25,859 bases of DNA from a virus. The stretch's first letter is position 1; the number at the start of each line of letters is the position of its first letter. Made by a program: the position numbers and the translations under genes. Shown here piece by piece: positions 5,909 to 25,859 of this stretch. The stretch spans positions 1 through 25,859 of the IMG/VR virus record IMGVR_UViG_3300049215_000120. One strand, given 5' to 3'. The notes beneath the pieces are model-generated. The model made no database searches. It had not been told where the DNA came from and was given only the letters and a program-made list of their open reading frames with translations.

Positions 5909-6943
5909 ATGCAGTTCGTACAGAAGGCCGCGCTCGACACGGTTCTCGGCGCCAACTTCGCTCGTCAGGACCTTTCCCCGATGATCAGCCTGCTCTCGAC
6001 GCGTCCGCGTCCGGTGTCGCAATACGCCGAACGCATCGCCGCGACGAACACGATCCACCAGTGGGTCGAGCAGGGCCGCAACGGCGTCGCCGGTCAAGGC
6101 GGCGCAACGGTGCCGTCGTACGCCGACGGTACCCTGCCGGCCACCGCGGCGAAGGCGCCGACCCGTCCGCAGAATGTCACGTGCCTCATGGGCCTCACCG
6201 CGCAGGTGACGGACCTCATGACCGCCGTGTGGTACGGCGGCGGCAAGTGGCAGCTGGAGACGGGCGAAGAAGTTCGCCTCCTCGCCGAGGCGATGGACCT
6301 CGAAACCATGCTCTGCTCGCTCGACACGCTCGACTTCATCGAATGGATGCAGATCTCGGGCGACTCGTCGAATCCGCAAGGCTTCGCTGGCGGCCAGTTC
6401 GACGGCTTGCTGAAGTGGATCAACGCGTCCGGCATCGTCGTCAACACGGGCGGCACGTCCGCGACGGCCGTGAACATGTCCGAGACGTTCATCAAGGACG
6501 GCGCGCGTCTGTCGGCCGAGCAGTTCCCGACGGTGTTCGCGGACACGATGCTCACCCCGCCGGAGCTGATCGTCGACGTCAACTCGTACGTCGCCAACGG
6601 CGCCGCGCGTCCGATCGTGCAGCTCGCCGCAACCGGTCCCGACGGCGTGTCCGGTCTTGTCGCCGGCAATCAGGTCGGGTGGTACAACACGGGCTACGGC
6701 GTCGTGAAGGTCGAGCTGGAGCCGAACCTCTCGCCGACGTTCAACCCGTACCTCACCAACCCGGCGATCATCCTCTACAACAAGTCCGCGGTCAAATACG
6801 CCGAGCTGATCAAGTTCGGCGCGACGCCGCTTGCCAAGACCGACACGTCGGTTAAGAAGATGATCAACAACGTCGCGACGCAGGAGCACCGCGTTGCGGC
6901 GCACGGCATCCTGATCCCGAACGTGAAGTCGGCGATCACCTAA
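5909..6943 (+). CDS. Major capsid protein (HK97 fold, SU10-like)
   Basis: This is the shell protein of the head. The ATG at 5909 follows GGAGG by eight bases; an upstream GTG at 5882 lies inside the hairpin and is rejected. The 344-residue product begins MQFVQKAALDTVLGANFARQ and continues with LSPMISLLSTRPRPVSQYAERI, resembling the N-terminal arm of SU10-type capsid proteins, then mixed alpha/beta sequence with an A-domain-like helix (SAEQFPTVFADTMLTPPELIVD) and a late beta strand (GYGVVKVELEPN). Position directly after the scaffold and its isolation between two hairpins support a highly expressed capsid gene. No fused protease or decoration domain is visible. The family assignment rests on pattern and context rather than a diagnostic motif. 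Confidence 0.85.
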   Translation: MQFVQKAALDTVLGANFARQDLSPMISLLSTRPRPVSQYAERIAATNTIHQWVEQGRNGVAGQGGATVPSYADGTLPATAAKAPTRPQNVTCLMGLTAQVTDLMTAVWYGGGKWQLETGEEVRLLAEAMDLETMLCSLDTLDFIEWMQISGDSSNPQGFAGGQFDGLLKWINASGIVVNTGGTSATAVNMSETFIKDGARLSAEQFPTVFADTMLTPPELIVDVNSYVANGAARPIVQLAATGPDGVSGLVAGNQVGWYNTGYGVVKVELEPNLSPTFNPYLTNPAIILYNKSAVKYAELIKFGATPLAKTDTSVKKMINNVATQEHRVAAHGILIPNVKSAIT

Positions 6944-6960
6944 TCCCTCAACGGGTAGCA

Positions 6961-6988
6961 GCGGGGCTCGGCTTCGGCCGGGCCTCGC
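6961..6988 (+). terminator. Ultra-stable UUCG hairpin after the capsid gene
   Basis: Twelve base pairs (two are G-T) close on a C(TTCG)G tetraloop at 6973-6976, one of the most stable RNA loops known. The stem is followed by a weak pyrimidine tract, TCTCTGTTTCC, and then by the GGAGG of the next gene. It probably terminates most transcripts or protects the 3' end of the capsid mRNA, lowering expression of the genes downstream. Confidence 0.7.
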
Positions 6989-7010
6989 TCTCTGTTTCCT
7001 GGAGGCCCTC

Positions 7011-8120
7011 TTGCCCAAGACCGCTCGTCGCACGGATGCGCCGGAAGTCGAACGGACGATCAACCACGTCTGGCTTCGCTGCCCGACATTTATGTGCGAA
7101 GACGGCTACGGCAACTCTGCCGAGCAGATGGCGCTCGCGATCCAACGCGCCGGTGTCGACATCTCCGTCGGAGGCACGTCGCAAGGCGGCGGCATGAACC
7201 GCTTCGGGCACTCGAACGCGACCGAAATCGCGGACCGCTCGTACAACGACACCAGGATCGGCGACGCGCTGATCTGGTACTCGCAGCCCCCGGCCTGGTA
7301 CAAGACCGGCCGCAAGAAGACCATCGGCTTCACGATGTTCGAAAGCACCGCGATCCCCGACGAGTGGATAGCGGGACTTGCGAAGGTCGATGAAATCTGG
7401 GTGCCCTCACCGTTCTGCGCCGAGGTGTTCGGCCAGTACGAGATGCGCGCGCCGATCGAGGTCGTTTCCCTCGGCGTCAACCCGAAAGACTTCCCGCCCA
7501 TGCGCCGGCAGCGCCGCGAGAAGCTGCGCTTCTTGCACGACATGACGCACCTGGGCGAACTGCGCAAAGGCGCGCAACTCGCGATCGACGCGTTCCTCGA
7601 AGCGTTCCCCGACCGTCCCGACGTCGAACTCGTCGTGCGCGCGGCGTGGCCGGACGCGACGCAATCGATCCAAACGAAAGACCCGCGCGTGACGCTGCGC
7701 GTCGAACGGCTACGCACACTGCAGCTGTGCGCGGTCTACCACGACTTCGACGCGATGATCTACCCGAGCAGAGGTGAAGGCTTCGGGCTCATCCCCTTGC
7801 AGGCGATGATGACCGGGATGCCCACGATCTACCCGGACGCGACGTCGCTCTCGGCCTTCAAGCCCTACGGCCTTCCGGTCAGCGCGAAGAAAGTGCCGAC
7901 GCGGGTCGGCGACGGCCGGCCGGGCGTGCCGCTGTGGAACTTCCGCAACGGCGCCTACTGGTTCGAGCCGAACATAACGGAACTCGTCGATCGGTTGCGT
8001 GAGATCGACCAGAACTACGACGCGGTGCAAGACACCGCGTCCGCCCAGGCCGAGTCGATCGGCGAAGAGTGGAATTGGGACCGCACGGCGGCGCGGATGC
8101 TGGAGCGACTCGAAGCGTGA
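7011..8120 (+). CDS. GT4-like glycosyltransferase (GT-B fold)
   Basis: The start is a TTG at 7011, five bases after GGAGG; no ATG fits. The 369-residue protein has the two Rossmann-like halves of GT-B enzymes. The N-terminal half contains CEDGYGNSAEQMALAIQRAG, a glycine-rich acceptor-side loop and helix. The second half has EVVSLGVNPKDFPP, KLRFLHDMTHLGELRKGAQLAI and then YPSRGEGFGLIPLQAMMTGMP. The last block is the donor-binding EX7E region of the GT4 family, but the second Glu is replaced: Glu256 is present and position 264 is Gln. It would transfer a nucleotide-activated sugar; the acceptor is unknown. Being placed between capsid and connector genes, a virion protein is the likeliest acceptor. 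The alternative is host surface modification. Confidence 0.85.
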   Translation: MPKTARRTDAPEVERTINHVWLRCPTFMCEDGYGNSAEQMALAIQRAGVDISVGGTSQGGGMNRFGHSNATEIADRSYNDTRIGDALIWYSQPPAWYKTGRKKTIGFTMFESTAIPDEWIAGLAKVDEIWVPSPFCAEVFGQYEMRAPIEVVSLGVNPKDFPPMRRQRREKLRFLHDMTHLGELRKGAQLAIDAFLEAFPDRPDVELVVRAAWPDATQSIQTKDPRVTLRVERLRTLQLCAVYHDFDAMIYPSRGEGFGLIPLQAMMTGMPTIYPDATSLSAFKPYGLPVSAKKVPTRVGDGRPGVPLWNFRNGAYWFEPNITELVDRLREIDQNYDAVQDTASAQAESIGEEWNWDRTAARMLERLEA

Positions 8121-8143
8121 ACGAGCCGAAAGGTCGTGCTCGT

Positions 8144-8788
8144 ATGAGCATCTCCGCCGTGCTGATCGTGCGCAACGAAGCGTCCCGCATCGAACGCACC
8201 GTGCGCGCGATCCGGCCGCACGTGCAGGAAGTCCTCGTCGTCGACCAAGCCTCGAACGATCACACGTACGACATCCTCTACGGGCTCTACCAGGCCAGCA
8301 TCGTCGACACGCTGCTCCGCGACGACAACCACGGCACCGCAGAAGTCTCGCGGCCGGCGGCCGTCAAGCTCGCTCAAGGACCGTGGGTGCTCATACTCGA
8401 TGCGGACGAAGAACTGCATCCAGACTTCGCAGCGAACCTTCCGCGCCTCGTGGCCAGCGACGAGGACTTCTGGCAACTTCGCCGGGTGACGACGATCGGC
8501 GGCCACGTCTACGAAGACGCGCCGCACAACCGGCTGTTCAAGAAGACCGCCGCGCACGTGCCGGAGTACCAAAACATCGGGGACTACGCACATTCGAGCG
8601 TCACCCCGCTGGAAGGCGTGAAGGTCGGCGCGTGGTCCGATAACGTGGCGATCGTGCACGAGAAATCGTGGCAAGAACAAGAGATCGACAACGCCCGCAG
8701 TGATCAGCTGCTCTCGATGCGCGCCGACGGTGATCCCGGCAAGCAGTTCGTCGGAACCTATCCCTGGTTGCCGTCCGAATCGGACTGA
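8144..8788 (+). CDS. GT2-like glycosyltransferase (GT-A fold)
   Basis: Residues begin MSISAVLIVRNEASRIERTV, the standard opening of family 2 glycosyltransferases, followed by VLVVDQASNDHTYDI (nucleotide-binding Asp) and VLILDADEEL, whose Asp86-Ala-Asp88 is the metal-binding DXD motif. At 214 residues it covers only the catalytic domain. An alternative start is GTG 8117, which overlaps the previous stop (GTGA) and would add nine residues; ATG 8144 is chosen because the conserved strand begins immediately after it. His654-like residues cannot be judged, but a late IVHEKSWQEQEI segment resembles the GT2 C-terminal metal-ligand His region. It probably acts in sequence with the upstream GT-B enzyme, for example adding a second sugar. 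Confidence 0.83.
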   Translation: MSISAVLIVRNEASRIERTVRAIRPHVQEVLVVDQASNDHTYDILYGLYQASIVDTLLRDDNHGTAEVSRPAAVKLAQGPWVLILDADEELHPDFAANLPRLVASDEDFWQLRRVTTIGGHVYEDAPHNRLFKKTAAHVPEYQNIGDYAHSSVTPLEGVKVGAWSDNVAIVHEKSWQEQEIDNARSDQLLSMRADGDPGKQFVGTYPWLPSESD

Positions 8789-8799
8789 GGAGGCGTGCC

Positions 8800-8937
8800 G
8801 TGCAGACGATCGCGCAAGACGTCACCTGGCTCGTCCTTACGCACCCGCACAACAAGATCGCCGTCGTCGGCCGGCTGCCCGCGACGCCCAAGCGCGCGGC
8901 CGAGACCTTTTCGCTGTCCTGGGTGAACCCGAACTAG
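8800..8937 (+). CDS. 45-residue mini-protein
   Basis: A GTG at 8800 sits six bases after GAGGAGG, which itself overlaps the stop of the preceding glycosyltransferase. The 45-residue product begins MQTIAQDVTWLVLTHPHNKI and ends FSLSWVNPN; it is a short beta-prone peptide without a membrane segment or signal. Its stop lies one base before the ATG of the adaptor gene, the same arrangement seen at 3171/3173. I do not recognise a family. It may be a real small virion or assembly protein, or a leader whose translation drives the adaptor gene, which has no strong ribosome site of its own. Confidence 0.5.
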   Translation: MQTIAQDVTWLVLTHPHNKIAVVGRLPATPKRAAETFSLSWVNPN

Positions 8938-8938
8938 G

Positions 8939-10141
8939 ATGGGGCTGCTGCTGAGCAACCAGTCGTACGTCACGGTAGCTGACTTCAAGTTGATGCCGCT
9001 CGACTACGATCTTTCGGACTACACGGACGCGCAGATTCAAGACATCCTCGTGCGCGCGTCCGGTGCCGCGAACTCAATCATGCGACGGTCGCAGTTGGCC
9101 GAAGAGCGGATCGACACGTTCTACGGCGACGGCTCGAACATCATGCCGATCGGGCGCCGGCCGCTGCTCTACGTGCGGCAGATGCAGTTCGTGCAGCCCG
9201 GCATTGTCGGGTTCGTGGTCCCGCCGAACCGCGTGCTCGTCGATTACACGAAAGCCCAGATCGTCCAGTACTCGCCGCTCGAACTGCAGGGCGTCGGCTT
9301 CGTGTCGGTCTTCCCCGACGGACTGCCGATCGCAATCACCTACGGGTGGGGCTACGGCTACAATCCGGCCACGGCGCCGAGCTGGACCGGCTCCGACACG
9401 CTCGCTCCGTTGAACGGTCTCGCGCCGGGCTCGTACGTCGTGGGTATCACGACGCGCACGCAATGGGGCGATACGATGCCGTCGTATCAGACGGTCGTCT
9501 CGGCCAACGGCGGGATCCTCGCGGTCATCAATCCCGTGCTCGGCGCGTGGAAGTACCGCGTCTTCATCACCCAAGGCACGCTGTTCTCGCTTTCGCAAAG
9601 CATCAACGCAGGCGACTCGTCGATCTACATCACCGGATCGACCATGCCGACGACGGGGCAAACGCTCATCCTCGACGCGTCGGCGAACGGGTTGGCCGAG
9701 GCGGTCGTCGTGACGTCTGCGGCCGGCGGGGTTGTGAATCTGCAATCTCCGACGCAGTACGATCACGGCATCAACGCCGTGATCGCGCCGCAGTGCAACT
9801 TCGCCCAAGAGATTCCGTCCACGACGTTCGGCGGCGAGGCCACGCAGGGCACCGTGTCGTCGCTCGTGCCGCCGTCCGGGTACTATCCCGAAACGGCACC
9901 ACTCACGGACACCTCGGCTGTGCCGTTGCCGCAAGAGATCCGCGAGGCGGTTCGTCTGTTGGCTCTTGGCCAGATGTACGAGCAGAACAACCTCGCGAAC
10001 CGCGGCATCGCGTCGACCGATAGCGGTCGGAAATCGATTAAGTGGCGTCCGACGACGGGAACGGGCGGCCGGGGAACGCCGACGCTCTGGCAGCAGGCCG
10101 AAGAGATCCTGAAGCCCCAGAAGCTCGCGACGATCTTCTGA
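8939..10141 (+). CDS. Head-tail connector (adaptor) with large inserted beta domain
   Basis: The ends of this 400-residue protein look like a gp6/gp15-type adaptor that docks under the portal. Residues 10-60 have YVTVADFKLMPLDYDLSDYT and a helix AQIQDILVRASGAANSIMRR, with a beta hairpin around 75-140 (PLLYVRQMQFVQ, GLPIAITYGWGYG). The C-terminal helix at 330-355 (PLPQEIREAVRLLALGQMYE) is typical. Ordinary adaptors are 100-200 residues; here about 145-325 is an insertion of beta sequence. It contains an Ig/FNIII-like part (GLAPGSYVVGITTRTQWGD) and a module at 221-283 (TTGQTLILDASANGLAEAVV, then a DHG ending) that recurs in the tail tube and hub proteins. The insertion is probably displayed on the neck surface. 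Confidence 0.72.
   Translation: MGLLLSNQSYVTVADFKLMPLDYDLSDYTDAQIQDILVRASGAANSIMRRSQLAEERIDTFYGDGSNIMPIGRRPLLYVRQMQFVQPGIVGFVVPPNRVLVDYTKAQIVQYSPLELQGVGFVSVFPDGLPIAITYGWGYGYNPATAPSWTGSDTLAPLNGLAPGSYVVGITTRTQWGDTMPSYQTVVSANGGILAVINPVLGAWKYRVFITQGTLFSLSQSINAGDSSIYITGSTMPTTGQTLILDASANGLAEAVVVTSAAGGVVNLQSPTQYDHGINAVIAPQCNFAQEIPSTTFGGEATQGTVSSLVPPSGYYPETAPLTDTSAVPLPQEIREAVRLLALGQMYEQNNLANRGIASTDSGRKSIKWRPTTGTGGRGTPTLWQQAEEILKPQKLATIF
9599..9787 (+). other. Recurring beta module inside the adaptor
   Basis: This stretch codes for residues 221-283: a Gly-Asp start, an LILDA strand, an E-AVVVTS strand, a connecting loop and a final HGINAVIA. The same order (GxTxLVDAG, then E-VV, then NHxxGxxV) occurs twice in the tail tube protein and once in the giant hub protein. 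The similarity is by eye and is at domain level, not nucleotide level. Confidence 0.5.
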
Positions 10142-10144
10142 CCG

Positions 10145-12064
10145 ATGCCGCTGCTCGTCAGTCAGCGCGCGGGCGCGCAGGGCAGCAGCACGTCCGCTGT
10201 CGTCCATCTCACTAGCTCGCCTGCCCTGGGCGACTTCTTACTCGGCGGCGTGCACTGCGCCGGCGCGCCGTCGGCGGGATCGGGCTACTCGGCGCTGCGG
10301 ACGGCAACCAACGGGCTCGTCGTCGATCAGGTTGCCACGTCGGGCGAATCCAGCGCGCAGACGATCTCGACGTTCCCAAGCGGCTCGTACGAAGCGTACC
10401 TCTACGATCTGATCGGCGCCGCGTCGACGCCGATCTTCGGCACGGCTGAAGCGGTTGGTGACGGCGGCACCATCTCGCTCGGCGTCGACGGCTCGGCGCC
10501 GTCGGGATCGCTCGCATTCATCTTCGTGCTCGGCACGGGCGACATCTCACCGGCGCCGACCGTCGCGACGCCGTCCGGCTACCTGGCGGACTATTTTCAG
10601 ACGCTCGGGAGCTCGGTGCTCGCGGTGTACCGATCCAACGGCTACGTGTCCGGCGACGTCACGACGACCGTCTCCTACGCCAACTTCGCAAGCGCGCCGA
10701 CGGCCGTGCTCGTCGTCGTGCAACCGCAAGGCGCGTCGCTCAGCGCGAACGCGTCCGCATCGGTCTTCAACTCGCACGGCTCGCTCAGCGCAGGCGCGTC
10801 CGCGTCGATCAAGCGGTATCGGAACGGCGAGACCATCACGGCTCCGCTCGTCGTGCAGGAAACGATCTCGGCACCGTGCGCGGTGGAAGAGATCATGACG
10901 TCATCGGGCGGCGTCTCGTCGGAGACGCCCTCCCGCGTCTACCCGGTTCCTCCGACGCCCCCTCCGCCCGCGCTCATTCTTCCGCCGTGGAACGACGACA
11001 CAATTCCCGCCGGCGCGCTCGTCGGCAAGACCTCGAGCACCGCATTTGATTCGAGCGAGCAGGCTGCGATTGCATCGAACTGGCCGAGCATCGTCTTCAT
11101 CATCCATTCGGGCTCGACGGGCTACTGGGAAGATCAAGTCTCGGCGCTTTACACGCCGTACAAGACGCGCAACCCCAGCGGCCTCATGGGCTTCTACGTC
11201 GGCTTTCACCAGCAGCGAACGCAGCTCTATCGCTATTGGCAGCAGCCCGAATTGCAGACGTGGTACGCCGAGTACGGCGGTCAGTACGTCAAAGGGAAAG
11301 ACGTCGAGAACGCAGCGTTTAGGGATGCGTGGTCGACCGACGTCGCGTGGCTGCTCGCGAACTACCCGTTCGACGGCGTCTTCGTCGACTCTCTCGGCCC
11401 CGGCTTCGACCCGAACAAATACGCGATGATCGCGGAGCTGCGCAAGAAGATCCCCGCGGGCAAATTCATCTGGGGCAACTGCGCTCCGACGCTCACGCCG
11501 GGACAGACGTATTTCGACGGCAACGCGTTGCATGGGTGCTTCAACGAAACGTCGGTCGGCGCACCGAATGGCAACGGCACGTCGCCGATCTACCTGAAGC
11601 AAACGCTCCAGCAGTGGATCGCGTACGCGAAGACTGGCTGGCCAGGCATCATGAAAGTGTGGCCGGGCTTCTGGTTCAACGATGAAAAAGGCCCGACGTG
11701 GCCGACGACGTACGGCGCGCGCGTCGTTGCGGCTCGCGCGACCAACGCCATCTCGTTCGCCCTCGGTTATTTCCTGTGCGGCATGTACCCGTACAGCTAC
11801 GTGCAGTACTCGTGGGGATATAACTACGACGGCGGCAATCTCGTCCTTGAGTACGATGCGAACGGGAACATCATCGGCGATCCGAGCGGCACCGTCGACA
11901 CGTCCTGGTACGCCGACTTCTTCAACGCCCTCGGTGCGCCGACGGGCGATGCGGTCTTCGGAGGAACGGGATTAGGCGCGGGCTACTTCGTCACGCGCTC
12001 GTTCGCGCACGCGACCGTGTCGGTCAACCTCGTTGCGCAAACCGCAACCGTCACGTTCGACTGA
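10145..12064 (+). CDS. Neck fibre-like protein with glycoside-hydrolase-like TIM barrel
   Basis: This 639-residue protein has three parts. Residues 1-190 form a beta-rich module (starts MPLLVSQRAGAQG) that is clearly homologous to the N-terminus of the giant hub gene at 21816, sharing GSGYxxL, SLAFIFVLG and a terminal VVVQPQ-like strand. Residues 195-223 hold about two copies of a 14-residue Ala/Ser repeat (GASLSANASASV). After a Pro-rich linker (PVPPTPPPPALILPP), residues about 290-630 look like a TIM-barrel glycosidase. They contain GLMGFYVGFHQQR, FDGVFVDSLGPGFDP with Asp410 and Asp415, FIWGNCAPT, CFNETSVG with Glu468, and MKVWPGFWFND. The DGVFVD strand followed by a Glu strand resembles putative GHL/DUF4015-type hydrolases. 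It could be a polysaccharide-degrading appendage. Its place within the connector genes is unusual. Confidence 0.7.
   Translation: MPLLVSQRAGAQGSSTSAVVHLTSSPALGDFLLGGVHCAGAPSAGSGYSALRTATNGLVVDQVATSGESSAQTISTFPSGSYEAYLYDLIGAASTPIFGTAEAVGDGGTISLGVDGSAPSGSLAFIFVLGTGDISPAPTVATPSGYLADYFQTLGSSVLAVYRSNGYVSGDVTTTVSYANFASAPTAVLVVVQPQGASLSANASASVFNSHGSLSAGASASIKRYRNGETITAPLVVQETISAPCAVEEIMTSSGGVSSETPSRVYPVPPTPPPPALILPPWNDDTIPAGALVGKTSSTAFDSSEQAAIASNWPSIVFIIHSGSTGYWEDQVSALYTPYKTRNPSGLMGFYVGFHQQRTQLYRYWQQPELQTWYAEYGGQYVKGKDVENAAFRDAWSTDVAWLLANYPFDGVFVDSLGPGFDPNKYAMIAELRKKIPAGKFIWGNCAPTLTPGQTYFDGNALHGCFNETSVGAPNGNGTSPIYLKQTLQQWIAYAKTGWPGIMKVWPGFWFNDEKGPTWPTTYGARVVAARATNAISFALGYFLCGMYPYSYVQYSWGYNYDGGNLVLEYDANGNIIGDPSGTVDTSWYADFFNALGAPTGDAVFGGTGLGAGYFVTRSFAHATVSVNLVAQTATVTFD
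10727..10813 (+). repeat. Two copies of the 14-residue Ala/Ser repeat
   Basis: Two units (14 and 15 residues) with the pattern xxxSLSAxASASV/I follow the N-terminal module. They correspond to the seven-unit array in the hub gene at 22392-22688. Only the protein pattern is conserved, so this is an old or diverged expansion. Confidence 0.6.
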
Positions 12065-12074
12065 GGAGGCCCAG

Positions 12075-12431
12075 ATGATCGTCTTTCAGTCGAAGATGCA
12101 GGCCGGCGAAGTCGGCTTCCAGATCACGTGGGACCCCGAGGCCGGACAGACGGGGAACATCCAGAGCCTGCTCGGCGCGAACGTCTCACTCCAGGTCTCG
12201 CAGCCCGGCTCCGGCTACAATCCGGACCCGTTCACCGCGTGCAGCGTCTCGGGCGATGGTCTGACCGCGTGGTACATCACGCAGGCGTCGACCGATTTTC
12301 CCACGGGCGGTGTGTACTACATCCAATGGACCGCGACGTGGTCGGACGGCTCGACGTTCGAGTCCGAGATCATCCAGTACAACGTCGGCCTCACGCTTCC
12401 CGACCTGCCCTTCGGTGTGCCGCAGCGATGA
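12075..12431 (+). CDS. Small beta-sandwich protein (Ig/BppU-like)
   Basis: The ATG at 12075 follows GAGGAGG, which overlaps the preceding TGA. The 118-residue product is all beta: VGFQITWDPEAGQTGNI, GANVSLQVSQPG, GLTAWYITQASTDFPTGGVY and YIQWTATWSDGSTFESEII. This alternation, with ligand-like Trp/Tyr residues, resembles small Ig-like or BppU-N-type domains that phages attach to necks and baseplates. No catalytic motif is seen. Directly following the glycosidase-like fibre, it may be the partner or anchor of that protein, or a head decoration protein. It overlaps the closure gene by ATGA. Confidence 0.6.
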   Translation: MIVFQSKMQAGEVGFQITWDPEAGQTGNIQSLLGANVSLQVSQPGSGYNPDPFTACSVSGDGLTAWYITQASTDFPTGGVYYIQWTATWSDGSTFESEIIQYNVGLTLPDLPFGVPQR

Positions 12432-12799
12432 GCGCGCAACTGCGAACCAACGCGATCCCGTGGCTGACGGATACGGAAACGGTCACGATCGTTCGTCGTT
12501 CCGGACCCGACACGACGGGTGCGCCGACGCAAACGACGATCTACTCAGGCGCGGCCGACGTGCAGATCGAAGTCGGCATGACGTTCGTCGACCCGTCCGG
12601 ATTGGTGCAGAGCGCGGACGGCACACTCGCGATCACGCCGGACTCGAACGGCAACCTTCCCGCAGTCGAATCGGGCGACGTCGTGCAGCTGAACGGCGCG
12701 GAGTATCGCATCGAGCAAGTTTACGTGTGGAACGCGCAGCCGATCCATCTCGAAGCGCGGCTGAAGGTTGGTCCCAAGAGCTACCACGGCCCGCGATGA
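12428..12799 (+). CDS. Head closure (stopper) protein
   Basis: The ATG overlaps the previous stop (ATGA). The 123-residue product has the layout of SPP1 gp16-like closure proteins: a short N-terminal strand with VTIVRRSGPDTTGAPT, TIYSGAADVQIEVG, a loop, LPAVESGDVVQLNGAEYRIE and a final strand PIHLEARLKVG. Closure proteins bind under the adaptor, block DNA leakage after packaging and provide the tail docking surface. Size, order after the adaptor and before the morphogenesis and terminator genes, and the GD-V-LNG-EYRIEQV core support the call. It overlaps the next gene by ATGA. Confidence 0.7.
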   Translation: MSAQLRTNAIPWLTDTETVTIVRRSGPDTTGAPTQTTIYSGAADVQIEVGMTFVDPSGLVQSADGTLAITPDSNGNLPAVESGDVVQLNGAEYRIEQVYVWNAQPIHLEARLKVGPKSYHGPR

Positions 12800-13326
12800 T
12801 CACGGTTTCGATCGACGGCGGCGACGCGCTGCTTTCGCGCGTGCGCGCGATGAAGGCTGCGACGCAGAACATGGAGCCGGCGCTCTTACGCGGCGGTATC
12901 GCGGCGTTAAAGGCCGCGGCGGATCGCATCGACGCGGGCGGTCCCGGCTGGCCGCCGTTGGTCGGTCCTCCGCATTCTCTGCTCCACGTCACCGGACGGC
13001 TGTTGTCGTCGCTGACGGTCGGCGGTCCCGGCAACGTCGTGCAGCTCAATCCGAACTCGATCCAGGTCGGCACGAACATCAAGACCGACGACGGCAACTG
13101 GAACCTCGGCGCGCTCTTGCAGGGCGGCACTGGCGTCTACGCCGGGAAGGGTCCGATCACGGCCAAGAACGGGAAGGCGCTGCGGTTCGAGCTCGGCGGC
13201 GCCGTCGTCTTCGCACGATCAGTGAAGGGCGTTCCACCGCGTCCGTTTTTGCTGATCGACGAACCGTTAGCGGATACGGTCGCCAAGATTTTCGCCGCGC
13301 ACATCATGGGCACACCGGAGGCATAG
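12796..13326 (+). CDS. Phage virion morphogenesis / tail completion protein
   Basis: The 176-residue product matches the virion morphogenesis family (Phage_tail_S, Mu gpG / P2 S type). It has an N-terminal helical arm (GDALLSRVRAMKAATQNMEP), WPPLVGPPHSLLHVTGRLLSSLTV, IQVGTNI, a GALLQGGTGVYAG loop, and FARSVKGVPPRPFLLI followed by a C-terminal helix. In this family the protein helps complete the tail end that joins the head. It starts at an ATG that overlaps the closure gene's stop and is followed by the terminator gene with only one base between. Confidence 0.78.
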   Translation: MITVSIDGGDALLSRVRAMKAATQNMEPALLRGGIAALKAAADRIDAGGPGWPPLVGPPHSLLHVTGRLLSSLTVGGPGNVVQLNPNSIQVGTNIKTDDGNWNLGALLQGGTGVYAGKGPITAKNGKALRFELGGAVVFARSVKGVPPRPFLLIDEPLADTVAKIFAAHIMGTPEA

Positions 13327-14155: not shown

Positions 14156-15643
14156 ATGCCCGCTCCAGGTGTAGGCGAACTATCTACGCATATCATCTCA
14201 AGAGAGACGACGTTCGGCACGCTCGCAGGCGGTCCGTGGCTGCTCCACGCCGCGGAAGCGTTCACGCCGACGACCAAGAACGTGTTCAACCCGCGTCCCG
14301 GTTCGCGCGGGGCGCCGGACGAAGTGTACGATGCGACCGGCCCACTCGAGATCTCGCTGACGTTCCGGCCGGAATCGCAGGCGGGCATCCTCGAGCAGCT
14401 GATCGCGTACTCGATGGGTACGCAGGCCACGCCGGTTCTGTACGGCACGGGCACGTTGGGCGCAGCGATCACGACGGCGCCGGGTTCGGTGTCGGTCGCG
14501 CTGTCCGGCCTCCCGCTCAACTCGATCCAGGCGGGCACGATTCTGCTCGTCGACGCGGGCACGGCGCAGGGCGAAGTCGTCATCGCCGGCACGGGCTCGT
14601 CGTACACGGGACTCCTCGCAACGACGTTCGCCAACAACCACTCGAAGGGCGCGACGATTCAAATCGTCGGCGAGTACGGCACGATCGCGGCAGCGATCAC
14701 GTCGTCGGGCTCGGCGCAGACGGTCACGACGACGAACACCTCGGGCTCGATCCTTCCCGGTCAGACGGTCTACGTCGACTACGGCTCGGCGACGAGCTAC
14801 GAAGCCGTCGTCGCGCTCGCCGGTTCTGGCGGTTCGACGCTCAAAGCCGTGTTCTCGAAAAACCATTCGACGAACGTCAAGATCGCGGCTTCGTCGGTCG
14901 CCTATCAGAACGTCTTCACCTTCGGTAAGCTGAAAGTGCTGCCGTCGTTCTCGCTCCAGCGCAACCGCGGCACGATCGACACCGTCGACTTCCTCGGCTG
15001 CTCCGTCGACCAGGTGAAGTTCCAGCTCGATTCAGCCAAGAACCTGATGAGCGACTTCACCATCCTCGCGCAGCAGTTCCAGCTCGACGGCTCGCCGGTT
15101 ACGCCCACGCAGGGGCTGTTGGGGCCGTACAAGATGGAAGCCTCGGCAACGGCGTGGTCGATCAACAGCGTCGTCGTCGGCACGGGCTCCGTGTCGCCGG
15201 ACGTCCTTTCTGCGACGTGGTCGCTCAACAACCAGCTCGGCAAGAACCGCCGCAGCGCAGGCTCGGGCCGACTCGTTACCGACTTCCCGCTCGGTCAGCG
15301 CAAGCTCTCTGGCACGATGAAGCTCGGCTTCGAAGACGACTCGATCCAACGGCTGTTCTTCAACGGCGGTCTCGGCGGCACGCCGACGGTTCCCGGCTCG
15401 GTCGTCACGGGCGTGCCCATGACGTTCCTGATCGCGGCGTCGGACATCGTCGACACGGTCCTCTCGCTGCCGTACTTCATCCAGTTCTACTTCCCAAACT
15501 GCGAGATCGAAGCGGCGGAGGTCCCGCACGTCGTCTCGGGCGCGCTCGAGCAGAACGTCACGTTCACGCCGAAGCAGTCGGTACCCGGCGCCGGCGATTC
15601 GCTGACCGTGACCGTCTGCAACGCAAACTCGACGGCGTACTGA
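14156..15643 (+). CDS. Major tail (tube) protein with two inserted beta modules
   Basis: This protein forms the hexameric rings of the tail tube. The 495 residues are long for the family, which is usually around 300. Residues 1-100 (ISRETTFGTLAGGPWLLHAA, YDATGPLEISLTFRP) and 250-480 (FSLQRNRGTIDTVDFLGCSV, SVSPDVLSATWSLNNQLGKN, YFIQFYFPNCEIEAAEVPHV) form the tube fold of the Phage_tube_2 type. Residues 106-245 are an insertion made of two similar beta modules: first NSIQAGTILLVDAGTAQGEV ending NNHSKGATIQIV, then LPGQTVYVDYGSATSYEAVV ending KNHSTNVKIA. Such insertions are expected to project outward as decorations along the tail. It is preceded by GGAGG. Confidence 0.82.
   Translation: MPAPGVGELSTHIISRETTFGTLAGGPWLLHAAEAFTPTTKNVFNPRPGSRGAPDEVYDATGPLEISLTFRPESQAGILEQLIAYSMGTQATPVLYGTGTLGAAITTAPGSVSVALSGLPLNSIQAGTILLVDAGTAQGEVVIAGTGSSYTGLLATTFANNHSKGATIQIVGEYGTIAAAITSSGSAQTVTTTNTSGSILPGQTVYVDYGSATSYEAVVALAGSGGSTLKAVFSKNHSTNVKIAASSVAYQNVFTFGKLKVLPSFSLQRNRGTIDTVDFLGCSVDQVKFQLDSAKNLMSDFTILAQQFQLDGSPVTPTQGLLGPYKMEASATAWSINSVVVGTGSVSPDVLSATWSLNNQLGKNRRSAGSGRLVTDFPLGQRKLSGTMKLGFEDDSIQRLFFNGGLGGTPTVPGSVVTGVPMTFLIAASDIVDTVLSLPYFIQFYFPNCEIEAAEVPHVVSGALEQNVTFTPKQSVPGAGDSLTVTVCNANSTAY
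14471..14890 (+). repeat. Tandem pair of beta modules inside the tail tube gene
   Basis: Module 1 (about 14471-14671) and module 2 (about 14699-14890) share the order Gly-x-Thr-x-Leu/Val-x-Val-Asp, then E-VV/AVV, then K/N-N-H-S-x-x, then a terminal I-I/A strand. They are about 65 residues each and probably arose by duplication; the nucleotide sequences have diverged. Confidence 0.6.
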
Positions 15644-21815: not shown

Positions 21816-24800
21816 ATGGCCTTGTCTGTCGTCCAAAAAGGACAGGGGAACGGCACCAATGCCAACTGCACCATCACGCTCGGTGCAGCGCCGACGTCGG
21901 GCGATCTCTTAGTCGCGATCGTACGCGGCGCGAACGCGCTGACGGTCGGTTCGGGCTACGCGACGCTACAATCGACGACCAACGCGCAGCTCAACACGAA
22001 GACGGCCGGCGGCTCGGAACTTGCGGGCCAAGTCACCGCAACGCAGACGTTGGGCAAATACGACGGCTATATCTACGAAATCAGCGGGCAGTCCGGCGCA
22101 ACGCCCGTCTCGACGAAGGCCGCGCCGGTCTCGAACACGATCTCGCTGTCGGCATCGGTCCCGAATAGCGAAACCGGCTGGCTCGCGTTCATCTTCGTCG
22201 TCGGGTCCGCACCGTCGAGCCCCACCGCGTCGACCCCGACCGGCTTCACCCAGGATTACTTCGGCAACGACGGCACGAACGTCATCGCCGCGTACTCGTC
22301 GCCCTCGACGGTTTCGGGAACGGTCAACCTGTCGCTCTCGATCTCGGGGATGAGCAACGGTGAGGGGTTCCTCATCCTCGTTCCCGTTGCGCAAAGTGCA
22401 TCGATCACGGGCACCGCCTCGGCGACGATCAAGGCATCGGGATCGGTCACGTCGAGCGCGTCGGCCACGGTGCGCGCGAGCGCCTCGCAAACCGCGACGG
22501 CGTCGGCGGACATTCAGAAGAGCGGCTCGCAGACGAGCGCGGCGAGCGCGACCGTCAAGACGAGCGGCTCGAAAACGTCCGGCGCGACGGCCACCGTTGT
22601 TTCTCCCGGTTCCGTCGCGTCGGGCGCCTCGGCCGACATTCACGGCAACGGCGTTGCTCTGTCGTACGGCGCCTCGGCCTACATCGAGCGTCCGCTCGCG
22701 CTCACCCCGATCTCGCAGCTCGACGTCCGGATCACCGTCTGGAACCCGGCCAAGAGCGTTATTCTGGTTGAGGACTGCGTCAGCACGGGCGATCTCGCCG
22801 GCGGCGCCGTGAAGTACGAAGACACGCCCTCCGGATGCGGTGCGGGCGAACTGACTCTGGGGCTTCGCCTTGAGGAAGCGCGCGCGCGCGGCTACTGGGC
22901 CGGCATGAACATCGTCGAGATCAGCACGGCCGACAATATCCTCCAGTCGTCGCTCGTGCAAAATCTCGTTCCGTTCTCCGATCTTCTCGTCAACGACGCG
23001 TCGAGCGGATGGACCGACACCTCGAGCGGCGCGCTGGTGTGGAGCGACAACGCAGCGCCGGGCGGGAAAGAAGGCGGCTTCACGGCCACCGGCACCGGCG
23101 CTACGGTCAGCGGCAAGCAGTACAGCCCGTCATTCACCGTCACCGGCACGGTCAAGTTCTCGGGCTACATCAAGCCGACGTACTGCTCCGGAAACACGCC
23201 GCGGATCCTCATCATGGATCCGACGCTCACGACGACGTACGCGACGCTGAACGCAACCAACGGCGCCGCCGGCCAGCAGCTCACGGCCACCGCGACCTTC
23301 GCGAGCCCAACGACCGTCGTCTACGTCTTCGACGCGAACGGTACGACGCTCGCCTCCGGTCAGCCGCTCATCTTCGCTCTGCCGCTTCTGACCGAACAGA
23401 CGCAACTCGCCAACGGGCACTACATCTCGAGCGCGGCCGCCGGCGTCGCGTATCTGGATACGATCTGGACGTTCGATCCGGCGCAAGGCGAAGACGGTCA
23501 GCAGGCATACTTTTGGGACGGCGCCACGCTGACGATGCTCTGCCCCGTGACGAAGGTCGGCACGGACGCGACGGGACCATACATCGAGGTCGGCCAGTCG
23601 CTCGCCGGTGGTCTCATGGGCTCGTACGCTGCCGGAACCCTCGTCGGACGCCGTCGCTACACGGGAAGAATCGTCCGACGCTCGCAGACGAACGACTATC
23701 AGCCCAACGGCACCGTGACGCTCGTCGGCATGGCGAAGGCGCTGGATCAAGCCTACGGCACCTTCAACGTCGGTGCCGCTGCAAACGTGGACACGGGCAC
23801 CGTCATCTATCAGACGCTGCTTCAGCTCTCGCCGGGGCACTGGCCGTTCTTCACGCTCGACCCGTCGAACTTCCCGACGGTCGGCTCGATCTATTCCGGC
23901 TCGAATACCGACTACAGCGCGACACAGCAGATCGCGGACTGCCTCAACTCGATTCCGACCGGAGACGTGTGGACGCTGCGAGTCGGCCACGATCTCGTTC
24001 CGCGGCTCATCAAGCTCTACGACGCGACGTCGAACACGTACACGTACAACGTAACGCTCGATCAGCACGCCGCGATGTTCGTTCCCGTCGCGGTGCAGAT
24101 CGACGACGAGGACGTGTCGGGGATCTACAACGCGCTGAAGGCGACCGGTGACCAGGATCCGACGACCAAACAGCCCGTCTCGGCCATCGTCGATGATCCC
24201 GATTCGATCGAGTTCTACGGCTTCCAGATCGACGGGCAGCCGGTTAATAATCTGGGCTGTAAGACGTCGCAGGATTGCGCCAATTATGCCACCGGACTCC
24301 TCAACCAGTTCTCGATCGCGCGCTCAAATCAGCAATTCCAGGTCTTCACCCGCAACGATCAGCTCTACAACATCCCCGCCAACGTCGGGGGCGTGACGCA
24401 GGGCGACGTCGTGCGCGCGATCGCCAACACGACGGTTGCGGGCTTCGAGAACGAAAGCACGACGAGCCCGGCCACGACGAACGAACCCGTGCCCCCCATC
24501 TACGGCCTCGGCACGTCCGTGCAGACGGTGATCGATTTCGATAAGCTCGACCGCTGGCAGCTCGTACAGTTCAGCGCCGTGGAACCGGATTGGTCGACGG
24601 CGCTGAAAGAGAAGGCGAACGCGCTTTCGAACGCGTTCTCGGGCTCCGGGTTTTTGACCGGCCTCGATCAGTACTTTGTCGACTCGAACGCGTTCAACGG
24701 CGTGACGTGGAGCGGCCTCGTCGTCAGCACGCCGAAGTTCTTCGCGGTCTTCACACTCGGCACGAACCCGGTGTTCTGCGGCGGGTCGTCCGCCTTCACC

Positions 24801-25859
24801 GTGGGCGGTGGAACCGTCGACACGTCGACGACGCAAGGCATCACCGGCAGCAGCTCCGCACAGACGGTGCCTGTCGTGTCCTCGTCCGGACTCGGCACGG
24901 GGTCGTTCGTGGGCATCGATGCCGGCGCCAACTACGAACTCGTCGAGGTCATCTCGGCGCCCGACGGTACGCACATTCGCGGCATCTTCCTGAAGAATCA
25001 CGCGAACGGCGTACCGGTCCAACAGGGGCCAATGGTCAGCTACGTATGGCTGAATCCGGACACGACGTGGACGGTCAAGGCGAACGATCCGACCGTGGTC
25101 TCCGGCGCCATCCTCTACGCGATATTCACGTCGCACTCGGGCGCGATCGTCGGGTATCAGCAGAAGGCCGCGATTGGCTTCATCTCGGTGCCGGGCTCGT
25201 ATTTCATCGGCGGCTCGCAGTACACGCCGACGTTCACGACGGGCAGCCCGACGATCTCGAACAAGGGTCAGATCGCGGCGCAGATCTCCATCGCGTTCGA
25301 GGTCACGAATCAGCCGCAAGACGGCTCGTACGCGAAGATGGTCTACGTCTACCGCCAGCACGGTCAGCCGGACTGGCTCGAACTCGGCCAAGACCTTCCT
25401 CGAGATGCGTCCTCGTCGCCGGGTGCGGTTTTGCAGAACGGCGTCGTGTCGGCCAACGGGAAATACGTGCTCAACTTCCCGGACGCGGCAAACGGGATTG
25501 CGTACGATTTCGGGTTTGCGATGCAGTCAGGCGGCCAGGCGCAAACCGACATCGAAACGCTCGCGTCCAATTTCGTCTCGTCCGACTCTCCGCCGAATAC
25601 CGCATCGCTTTCGGTGACATGGGGCACGCCGACCGTGCTCAGCCCGAGCGGCGCGACGACGATCATTCTGGGCTTCAGCGTATCGTATTCATTCGCGGGC
25701 GTTAGCGGCGACGTGTCGTGGCTCGGCCAGTTCCAGATCGCGATCTACAACGGCGACCCGCTCAACCCGCTCCCAACTCCCGTGTCGGTCTTGCCGGCGC
25801 AGCGCACGTCGACGAGCGGCACGCTCAACTTCCAGGTGCAGTTGCCGCCGAACTGGACG
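21816..25859 (+). CDS. Giant tail hub/fibre protein (3' end outside window)
   Basis: The ATG at 21816 follows AGGAGG and the frame is open to the last base, at least 1348 codons. Residues 1-190 (MALSVVQKGQGNGTNANCTI...) are homologous to the N-terminus of the 10145 gene. Residues 193-291 are seven 14-15-residue Ala/Ser repeats. From about 295 a hub-like region begins (QLDVRITVWNPAKSVILVED); around 610 it has LVGRRRYTGRIVRRSQTNDY...GTVTLVGMAKALDQAYGTF, resembling baseplate hub (Tal/gp27-type) proteins. About 1008-1070 carries the beta module shared with adaptor and tube (SFVGIDAGANYELVEV, then LKNHANGVPV). The rest consists of FNIII-like beta domains (ISIAFEVTNQPQDGSYAKMV). It likely forms the tail tip that contacts the host and carries receptor-binding or fibre domains. 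Confidence 0.75.
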   Translation, partial: MALSVVQKGQGNGTNANCTITLGAAPTSGDLLVAIVRGANALTVGSGYATLQSTTNAQLNTKTAGGSELAGQVTATQTLGKYDGYIYEISGQSGATPVSTKAAPVSNTISLSASVPNSETGWLAFIFVVGSAPSSPTASTPTGFTQDYFGNDGTNVIAAYSSPSTVSGTVNLSLSISGMSNGEGFLILVPVAQSASITGTASATIKASGSVTSSASATVRASASQTATASADIQKSGSQTSAASATVKTSGSKTSGATATVVSPGSVASGASADIHGNGVALSYGASAYIERPLALTPISQLDVRITVWNPAKSVILVEDCVSTGDLAGGAVKYEDTPSGCGAGELTLGLRLEEARARGYWAGMNIVEISTADNILQSSLVQNLVPFSDLLVNDASSGWTDTSSGALVWSDNAAPGGKEGGFTATGTGATVSGKQYSPSFTVTGTVKFSGYIKPTYCSGNTPRILIMDPTLTTTYATLNATNGAAGQQLTATATFASPTTVVYVFDANGTTLASGQPLIFALPLLTEQTQLANGHYISSAAAGVAYLDTIWTFDPAQGEDGQQAYFWDGATLTMLCPVTKVGTDATGPYIEVGQSLAGGLMGSYAAGTLVGRRRYTGRIVRRSQTNDYQPNGTVTLVGMAKALDQAYGTFNVGAAANVDTGTVIYQTLLQLSPGHWPFFTLDPSNFPTVGSIYSGSNTDYSATQQIADCLNSIPTGDVWTLRVGHDLVPRLIKLYDATSNTYTYNVTLDQHAAMFVPVAVQIDDEDVSGIYNALKATGDQDPTTKQPVSAIVDDPDSIEFYGFQIDGQPVNNLGCKTSQDCANYATGLLNQFSIARSNQQFQVFTRNDQLYNIPANVGGVTQGDVVRAIANTTVAGFENESTTSPATTNEPVPPIYGLGTSVQTVIDFDKLDRWQLVQFSAVEPDWSTALKEKANALSNAFSGSGFLTGLDQYFVDSNAFNGVTWSGLVVSTPKFFAVFTLGTNPVFCGGSSAFTVGGGTVDTSTTQGITGSSSAQTVPVVSSSGLGTGSFVGIDAGANYELVEVISAPDGTHIRGIFLKNHANGVPVQQGPMVSYVWLNPDTTWTVKANDPTVVSGAILYAIFTSHSGAIVGYQQKAAIGFISVPGSYFIGGSQYTPTFTTGSPTISNKGQIAAQISIAFEVTNQPQDGSYAKMVYVYRQHGQPDWLELGQDLPRDASSSPGAVLQNGVVSANGKYVLNFPDAANGIAYDFGFAMQSGGQAQTDIETLASNFVSSDSPPNTASLSVTWGTPTVLSPSGATTIILGFSVSYSFAGVSGDVSWLGQFQIAIYNGDPLNPLPTPVSVLPAQRTSTSGTLNFQVQLPPNWT
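22392..22688 (+). repeat. Seven-unit 14-residue Ala/Ser repeat array in the hub gene
   Basis: Six units of 14 residues and one of 15 follow without gaps, consensus xSGSxTSxASATVx (examples ASGSVTSSASATVR, KSGSQTSAASATVK). The 42-bp units differ at the DNA level. Regular small-residue repeats of this kind fit a stalk or a beta-helical stem between the N-terminal module and the hub domain. Confidence 0.75.
24840..25026 (+). other. Recurring beta module in the hub gene
   Basis: Coding for about residues 1009-1070, this has the same order of elements as the tail tube and adaptor modules: a GxFVGIDAG strand, E-LVEVIS, a connecting strand, then KNHANGVPV. It is the fourth copy in the window, lying outside the hub core. 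Confidence 0.5.

Follow-up and report, generated by a model that had tools for sequence, protein, structure and literature searches.

Does a gene lying among the head-tail connector genes of a phage encode a polysaccharide-active enzyme, and would the particle carry that enzyme at its neck? The question is raised by an open reading frame (ORF) of 639 aa with an ATG start (positions 10145-12064, + strand), found in a linear virus record of an uncultivated phage that was analysed over its whole 25,859 bases (the window). An earlier note had described the product as a fibre-like protein with a glycosidase-like TIM barrel, encoded in the head-neck gene block. The ORF and its place in that block were confirmed in the sequence, as were the motifs FDGVFVDSLGPGFD (Asp410, Asp415), FIWGNCAPT, and CFNETSVG (Glu468), all at the residues that the note had assigned. 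Features of the gene and its surroundings are collected in Table 1.

Table 1. Coordinates of the ORF 10145-12064 domains, of the putative active-site residues and of the surrounding genes in the window.
Feature	Positions	Strand	Basis or conservation
Adaptor-position gene (Ad1-like)	8939-10141	+	Gene position and a matching short motif (hhalign E 0.005, at a probability of just 7%)
N-terminal module, residues 1-262	10145-10930	+	Paralogue of the N-terminus of the 21816 protein
Pro-rich linker, residues 263-280	10931-10984	+	Sequence
GH168/GHL15-like (beta/alpha)8 barrel, residues 281-639 (modelled ~276-639)	10985-12064	+	Sequence and model
Asp410, first Asp of DGxFxD	11372-11374	+	Conserved in 75/76 cellular and 3/3 phage sequences
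Asp415, GH168 nucleophile position	11387-11389	+	Invariant in 76/76 cellular and 3/3 phage sequences
His463-Gly464, columns receiving the canonical acid/base Glu	11531-11536	+	H/H/D and G/M/G in the three phages
Glu468, alternative acid/base candidate	11546-11548	+	Invariant in the three phage proteins
Small Ig-like protein between ORF 10145-12064 and head closure	12075-12431	+	Pfam Kre9_KNH E 0.002, below cut-off
Head-closure-position gene	12428-12799	+	Position; weak profile matches only, including DUF6093
Tail completion / Neck1	12796-13326	+	phrog_26, E 5e-6
Tail tube	14156-15643	–	26.8 bits to Phage_tube_2, slightly below the cut-off
Large protein downstream of tape measure	21816-25859, runs off window	+	N-terminal module at 21816-22601

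The gene order of the window was: terminase, portal, MuF-like, protease/scaffold-like, capsid (Pfam SU10_MCP), two glycosyltransferases, adaptor-position gene, ORF 10145-12064, small Ig-like gene, head-closure-position gene, Neck1, tail-terminator-position gene, tail tube, tape measure, and the large protein that runs off the window end. Some of these names were given by position only, the adaptor and head-closure labels were based mainly on gene order, and the adaptor label is weaker than the other neck labels in the window. Three bases separate the stop of the upstream gene from the start of ORF 10145-12064 and the next gene follows closely; this tight spacing on both sides places the ORF inside the neck gene block. 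The small Ig-like protein is possibly a BppU-like neck piece, with profile support below the cut-off. The glycosyltransferase genes, one GT4-type (7011-8120; Pfam Glyco_trans_1_4, E 4e-9) and one GT2-type (~8144-8788; PF00535, E 2e-14), sit in an odd place between the capsid and adaptor-position genes and could point to modification of virion or host glycans. Scans for Rfam families and for sigma-70 sites gave no match.

The C-terminal domain (residues 281-639) matched solved GH168 enzymes in a phmmer search (E 1.6e-12 to 9nhf) and the Pfam family GHL15 (PF14885; 26.7 bits and E 6.5e-6 for the domain alone, 23.7 bits for the whole protein). An AlphaFold2 model was built from a 44-row alignment consisting mostly of relatives out of bacterial genomes. 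In the barrel region most ten-residue blocks had pLDDT values of 65-96, with loops below 50. Model residues 276-639 superposed on the GH168 structures 9joo, 8rg3, and 9nhf with a Z score of 36 and an rmsd of 2.3 over ~320 residues; the next folds scored Z 16. Given the phmmer and GHL15 E-values together with this Z score, the match to GH168 is not a chance one. The model supports residues ~276-639 as a predicted TIM barrel of the GH168/GHL15 fold, in agreement with the glycosidase fold that had been proposed. The right-handed beta-helix of tailspike depolymerases was absent from the C-terminal domain, which was modelled as a TIM barrel, and a Foldseek search of viral predicted structures gave no informative match (best E 3.8e-7, TM about 0.3). 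The PF14885 gathering score of 27 bits was not reached by the window domain or by its relative in the phage record L079 (25.4 bits), and was passed by the relative in L092 (42.6 bits). Because the window domain falls short of this cut-off and lacks several conserved residues, it is called GH168-like here and is not filed as a member of GH168.

The same note had proposed Asp415 and Glu468 as a catalytic pair, and the two residues fared differently. Asp415 corresponds to FunA D206, MeGH168 D167, and 9jp3 D171. In FunA, D206 and E264 are critical (PMC7401878), and in MeGH168, Asp167 is the predicted nucleophile and Glu237 the predicted acid/base (PMC12210190). With its conservation throughout the cellular and phage sequences, Asp415 is supported as the putative catalytic residue. 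Glu468 was likewise invariant in the phages but lay off the GH168 acid/base column. The canonical Glu, in the motif M-x-E-H, was present in 75/76 cellular relatives. The phages had no Glu at the aligned position, its column falling on His463 or Gly464 of the window protein, depending on the aligner. Glu468 lies 4-5 residues beyond that column, invariant amid a poorly conserved stretch, and in a sliding PSSM test, which is a weak one, the loop from Glu468 to the next helix agreed to within a residue in L079 and L092. Glu468 may be the acid/base, as a candidate that the alignment places off the GH168 Glu column. His463 was considered as a replacement and dropped, as L092 has Asp or Gly there and Glu468 is invariant. 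Asp/His pairs are listed for GH107 (PMC11943901).

Elsewhere in the domain, Asn445 was invariant in the three phage proteins. At columns 319, 320, and 353 (P0001 numbering) the window/L079 residues were I/N, I/I, and G/G; the cellular relatives had E319 in 74/76, K320 in 73/76, and N353 in 74/76. Because the canonical Glu is missing at its aligned position and E319, K320, and N353 are replaced, activity could be lost. With GH168-conserved residues around the pocket lost, the substrate is probably not sulfated fucan.

A terminase query retrieved five related viruses and a later adaptor query retrieved L092; the latter was found by its adaptor alone, the enzyme domain not being required. Three phages, all of them metagenomic fragments, carried the GH168-like domain: the window, L079 (48-51% identity to the window domain), and L092 (46%). 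The L079 ORF (15406-16986, 526 aa) comprised a head-closure domain in its first ~145 residues, a Pro linker, and the GH168-like domain, and lay after an Ad1 adaptor (phrog_442, phrog_477) and before a homologue of the L081 Neck1-type gene. A model of the L079 protein showed the same barrel fold (Z 35.6 to GH168 structures), and its head-closure domain was modelled with low confidence (pLDDT mostly 28-65) and not used. That head-closure domain stands alone in L081 as a 143-aa protein (32% identity, E 6e-15) and is joined to a different C-terminal module in L082 (47%, E 4e-33). The window product of the head-closure-position gene was 29% identical to it in a three-way alignment. In the L092 ORF (8026-10029, 667 aa), an N-domain of ~300 aa was joined through a Pro-rich linker to the GH168-like domain. 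This ORF was flanked by an Ad1 relative on one side and by a tail sheath gene (phrog_23, E 6e-23) on the other, the latter marking a contractile-tailed phage. The L092 N-domain (8026-8928) had no convincing family match; lying ahead of the sheath gene, it may be a tail terminator.

Whole-record searches found the domain once only in L079 and once only in L092, at the neck each time, preceded as in the window by a Pro-rich linker. Within the window, the domain is not fused to any connector protein. Neck mounting, which the earlier note had suggested from gene position, gained support from two fusions of the same domain, one with a head-closure protein (L079) and one with a different protein of the neck block (L092).

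The fibre-like architecture ahead of the linker was as the note had it, with an N-terminal module and a short repeat stretch. The N-terminal ~262 aa shared 32% identity with the N-terminus of the 21816 protein (E 1.9e-27), and the repeat stretch, of Ala/Ser type, lies at residues ~196-240 within the module. Residues 1-262 had no Pfam or PHROG match. AlphaFold2 gave pLDDT values of 25-42 over the module, too low for fold assignment; the low-confidence model before residue 276 contained strands and no long helix. The module may be an adhesin or an anchor. The 21816-25859 protein shares both the module and the Ala/Ser repeat stretch, so the module occurs on two virion-type proteins of the phage.

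The three phage domains (46-49% identity) formed one clade against 76 cellular sequences, separated by a long branch (SH-aLRT 100 in a quick tree that gave long-branch warnings). The known cellular relatives are genes of bacteria, e.g., marine Flavobacteriaceae, Planctomycetota, and Verrucomicrobiota. In search of a host, a three-phage profile was run over 392 genomes from the phylum to which a Planctomycetota record (L003) belongs and 388 from that of an Opitutaceae record (L006, Verrucomicrobiota). The phage-type domain was found in none of them; these genomes gave distant GH168 relatives only, with E-values down to 7e-30. The phage domains would be the first phage family related to GH168.

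Among the matches listed, the window terminase had about 34% identity or less, and the window capsid protein had no match among 50,697 phage records. The window phage is far from cultured phages. In tblastn searches the 10145-12064 protein had no match in the 50,697 phage records or in 72,556 plasmids, and the large 21816 tail protein and the L092 fusion had none in the phage records. Scans of viral contigs came up empty when the query was the 10145-12064 protein, its N-module, the capsid protein or the GH168 alignment, and gave matches with the terminase and adaptor; the scans relied on short exact peptides and thus underestimate the spread.

The neck slot of L082/L090 (the same record), between head closure and Neck1, held other cargo: two additional proteins, and one of 484 aa that carries a GDSL acylhydrolase domain (PF13472, E 2e-14). 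This GDSL/SGNH acylhydrolase (L090 9334-10788) also has a Cleaved_Adhesin-like stretch. In the same record, the C-terminal extension of the head-closure protein (6900-7739) and the next protein (7770-8291) have a common 'LAIVPANFPGGDV / IAVIPANFPPGDV' motif, which may indicate that decoration modules are repeated at the neck. The L081 slot held nothing extra. In total, five phages had a resolved neck (the window, L079, L081, L082, and L092): 3/5 had a GH168-like domain, 1/5 a GDSL esterase, and 1/5 none, which in a small sample picked partly by relatedness is a pattern to test and not a rate. The presence of a predicted carbohydrate-active-type enzyme domain in the slot of 4/5 of these phages strongly supports a neck-mounted enzyme or lectin.

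On this evidence we lean towards reading the 10145-12064 product as a neck protein of the virion that holds a GH168-like barrel on a flexible arm and acts on host-surface polysaccharide. The identity and fold of the domain, the conservation of Asp415, the position in the neck block, and the fusions in L079 and L092 are the data on which this reading stands. The protein would form part of the head-tail neck, its C-terminal barrel displayed by the flexible Pro-rich arm. The barrel would act on a surface polysaccharide of the host, be it capsule, slime or a different envelope glycan, and would probably cleave it. The mechanism would be a retaining one, in which Asp415 is the presumed nucleophile and has a presumed acid/base partner. 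Such cutting would let the particle reach the envelope, or release it from a coat. It is rather doubtful that the neck-mounted barrel has instead lost catalysis and become a lectin-like binder of host glycans, an auxiliary adhesin comparable to the carbohydrate-binding modules of the lactococcal neck passage structure (NPS) proteins. The residues in the aligned acid/base column, the loss of GH168-conserved residues, and the NPS precedent, which mostly binds rather than cuts (PMC6669499), would all suit a binder. Yet the nucleophile Asp415, Asp410, and Asn445 have stayed invariant among the phages, a phage-specific Glu468 is kept where its surroundings are not, and the GDSL esterase in the same slot of a related phage points to enzymes.

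Two further readings concern where the protein goes. That it is an ordinary tail-end fibre that happens to be encoded in the neck block, docking on the tail tip by means of the N-terminal module, is improbable: the module does recur on a protein encoded downstream of the tape measure, but there it precedes a large C-terminal part and need not be the virion anchor, and the L079 and L092 domains are covalently within head-tail connector-block proteins. Least credible is a non-structural moron cargo, a polysaccharide enzyme co-transcribed with the neck genes and set free at lysis. Inserted morons do occur in phage genomes and the slot is empty in L081, but the direct fusion of the L079 domain to a head-closure domain and the multi-module, fibre-like architecture of the window protein speak for a structural role, and we give the moron reading very little weight.

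A broader proposal is evenly poised, namely that in a group of uncultivated phages the connector is an exchangeable platform. Its adaptor-to-tail slot would take polysaccharide-active enzymes (GH168-like, GDSL), some fused to core connector proteins, with tails of both non-contractile type and contractile type, and the phage-specific GH168-like family would have moved its acid/base. A glycosidase-type domain in a head-closure protein would put such tools also at the head end of the particle. A question is thereby made testable: does an enzyme at the neck clear away the polysaccharide surrounding the particle, or does it help progeny to escape from slime? The adaptor-to-Neck1 or adaptor-to-sheath interval is a place to look for unrecognised depolymerases.

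The whole-domain TIM-barrel fold of the window domain is common to the GH168 endo-fucanases (FunA/Fun168A, Fun168E, PbFucA, MeGH168), as are the DGxFxD motif with its nucleophile Asp, the conserved Asn445, and a Y-x-x-Y-x-W-G motif. In contrast to these secreted enzymes, the window domain is part of a phage neck-block protein, has 22-26% identity to them in the structure alignment, belongs to a separate deep clade, lacks the acid/base Glu at the aligned place, and has lost conserved pocket-region residues. The earlier note knew of no described neck appendage that binds or degrades polysaccharide. This does not hold for carbohydrate-active neck parts in general (PMC6669499; PMC5380687) and, as far as the literature was searched, does hold for the GH168-like family and its fusions. 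The lactococcal NPS are neck proteins whose C-termini fall into CBM, beta-helix, and esterase-CBM-like classes (PMC6669499). Among reviewed depolymerases, nearly every one is borne on a tail fibre or tailspike, a pre-neck appendage depolymerase being named as the exception, and P22 gp4 is a neck lysozyme (PMC5380687). A literature search combining head closure and glycoside hydrolase gave nothing relevant, with a limited coverage that is not proof of novelty; as far as searched, no description was found of a GH168-like barrel in phages, of its fusion to a core connector protein, or of interchangeable enzyme cargo in one slot.

The NPS resemble the window protein as neck-block proteins with variable C-terminal modules of carbohydrate-active type (CBM and beta-helix in the NPS). 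The NPS are separate collar proteins with a BppU-like N-terminal beta-sandwich (~180 aa) and a trimeric coiled coil between collar and C-terminal module, in a collar seen by EM. In the phages here the C-terminal module is a predicted TIM barrel, and L079 has a direct fusion to the head-closure domain. phi29 gp12 and the staphylococcal pre-neck appendage Dpo7 are polysaccharide-degrading appendages of the neck region, like the proposed window protein, and unlike the phage fusions here are not fused to connector proteins. They belong to another appendage protein class and are not known to be TIM barrels. P22 gp4 places an enzyme activity in a head-tail connector protein, as is proposed here, but is a small muralytic protein without a displayed glycoside-hydrolase-like barrel. 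The attachment of the domain to different neck-block proteins in two other phages suggests that sugar-degrading tools are, in some phages, mounted on the neck and not at the tail tip alone. What sets these phages apart from known neck modules is the enzyme family, the direct joining of the domain to a core connector protein, and its occurrence on different neck-block proteins, including that of a contractile-tailed phage.
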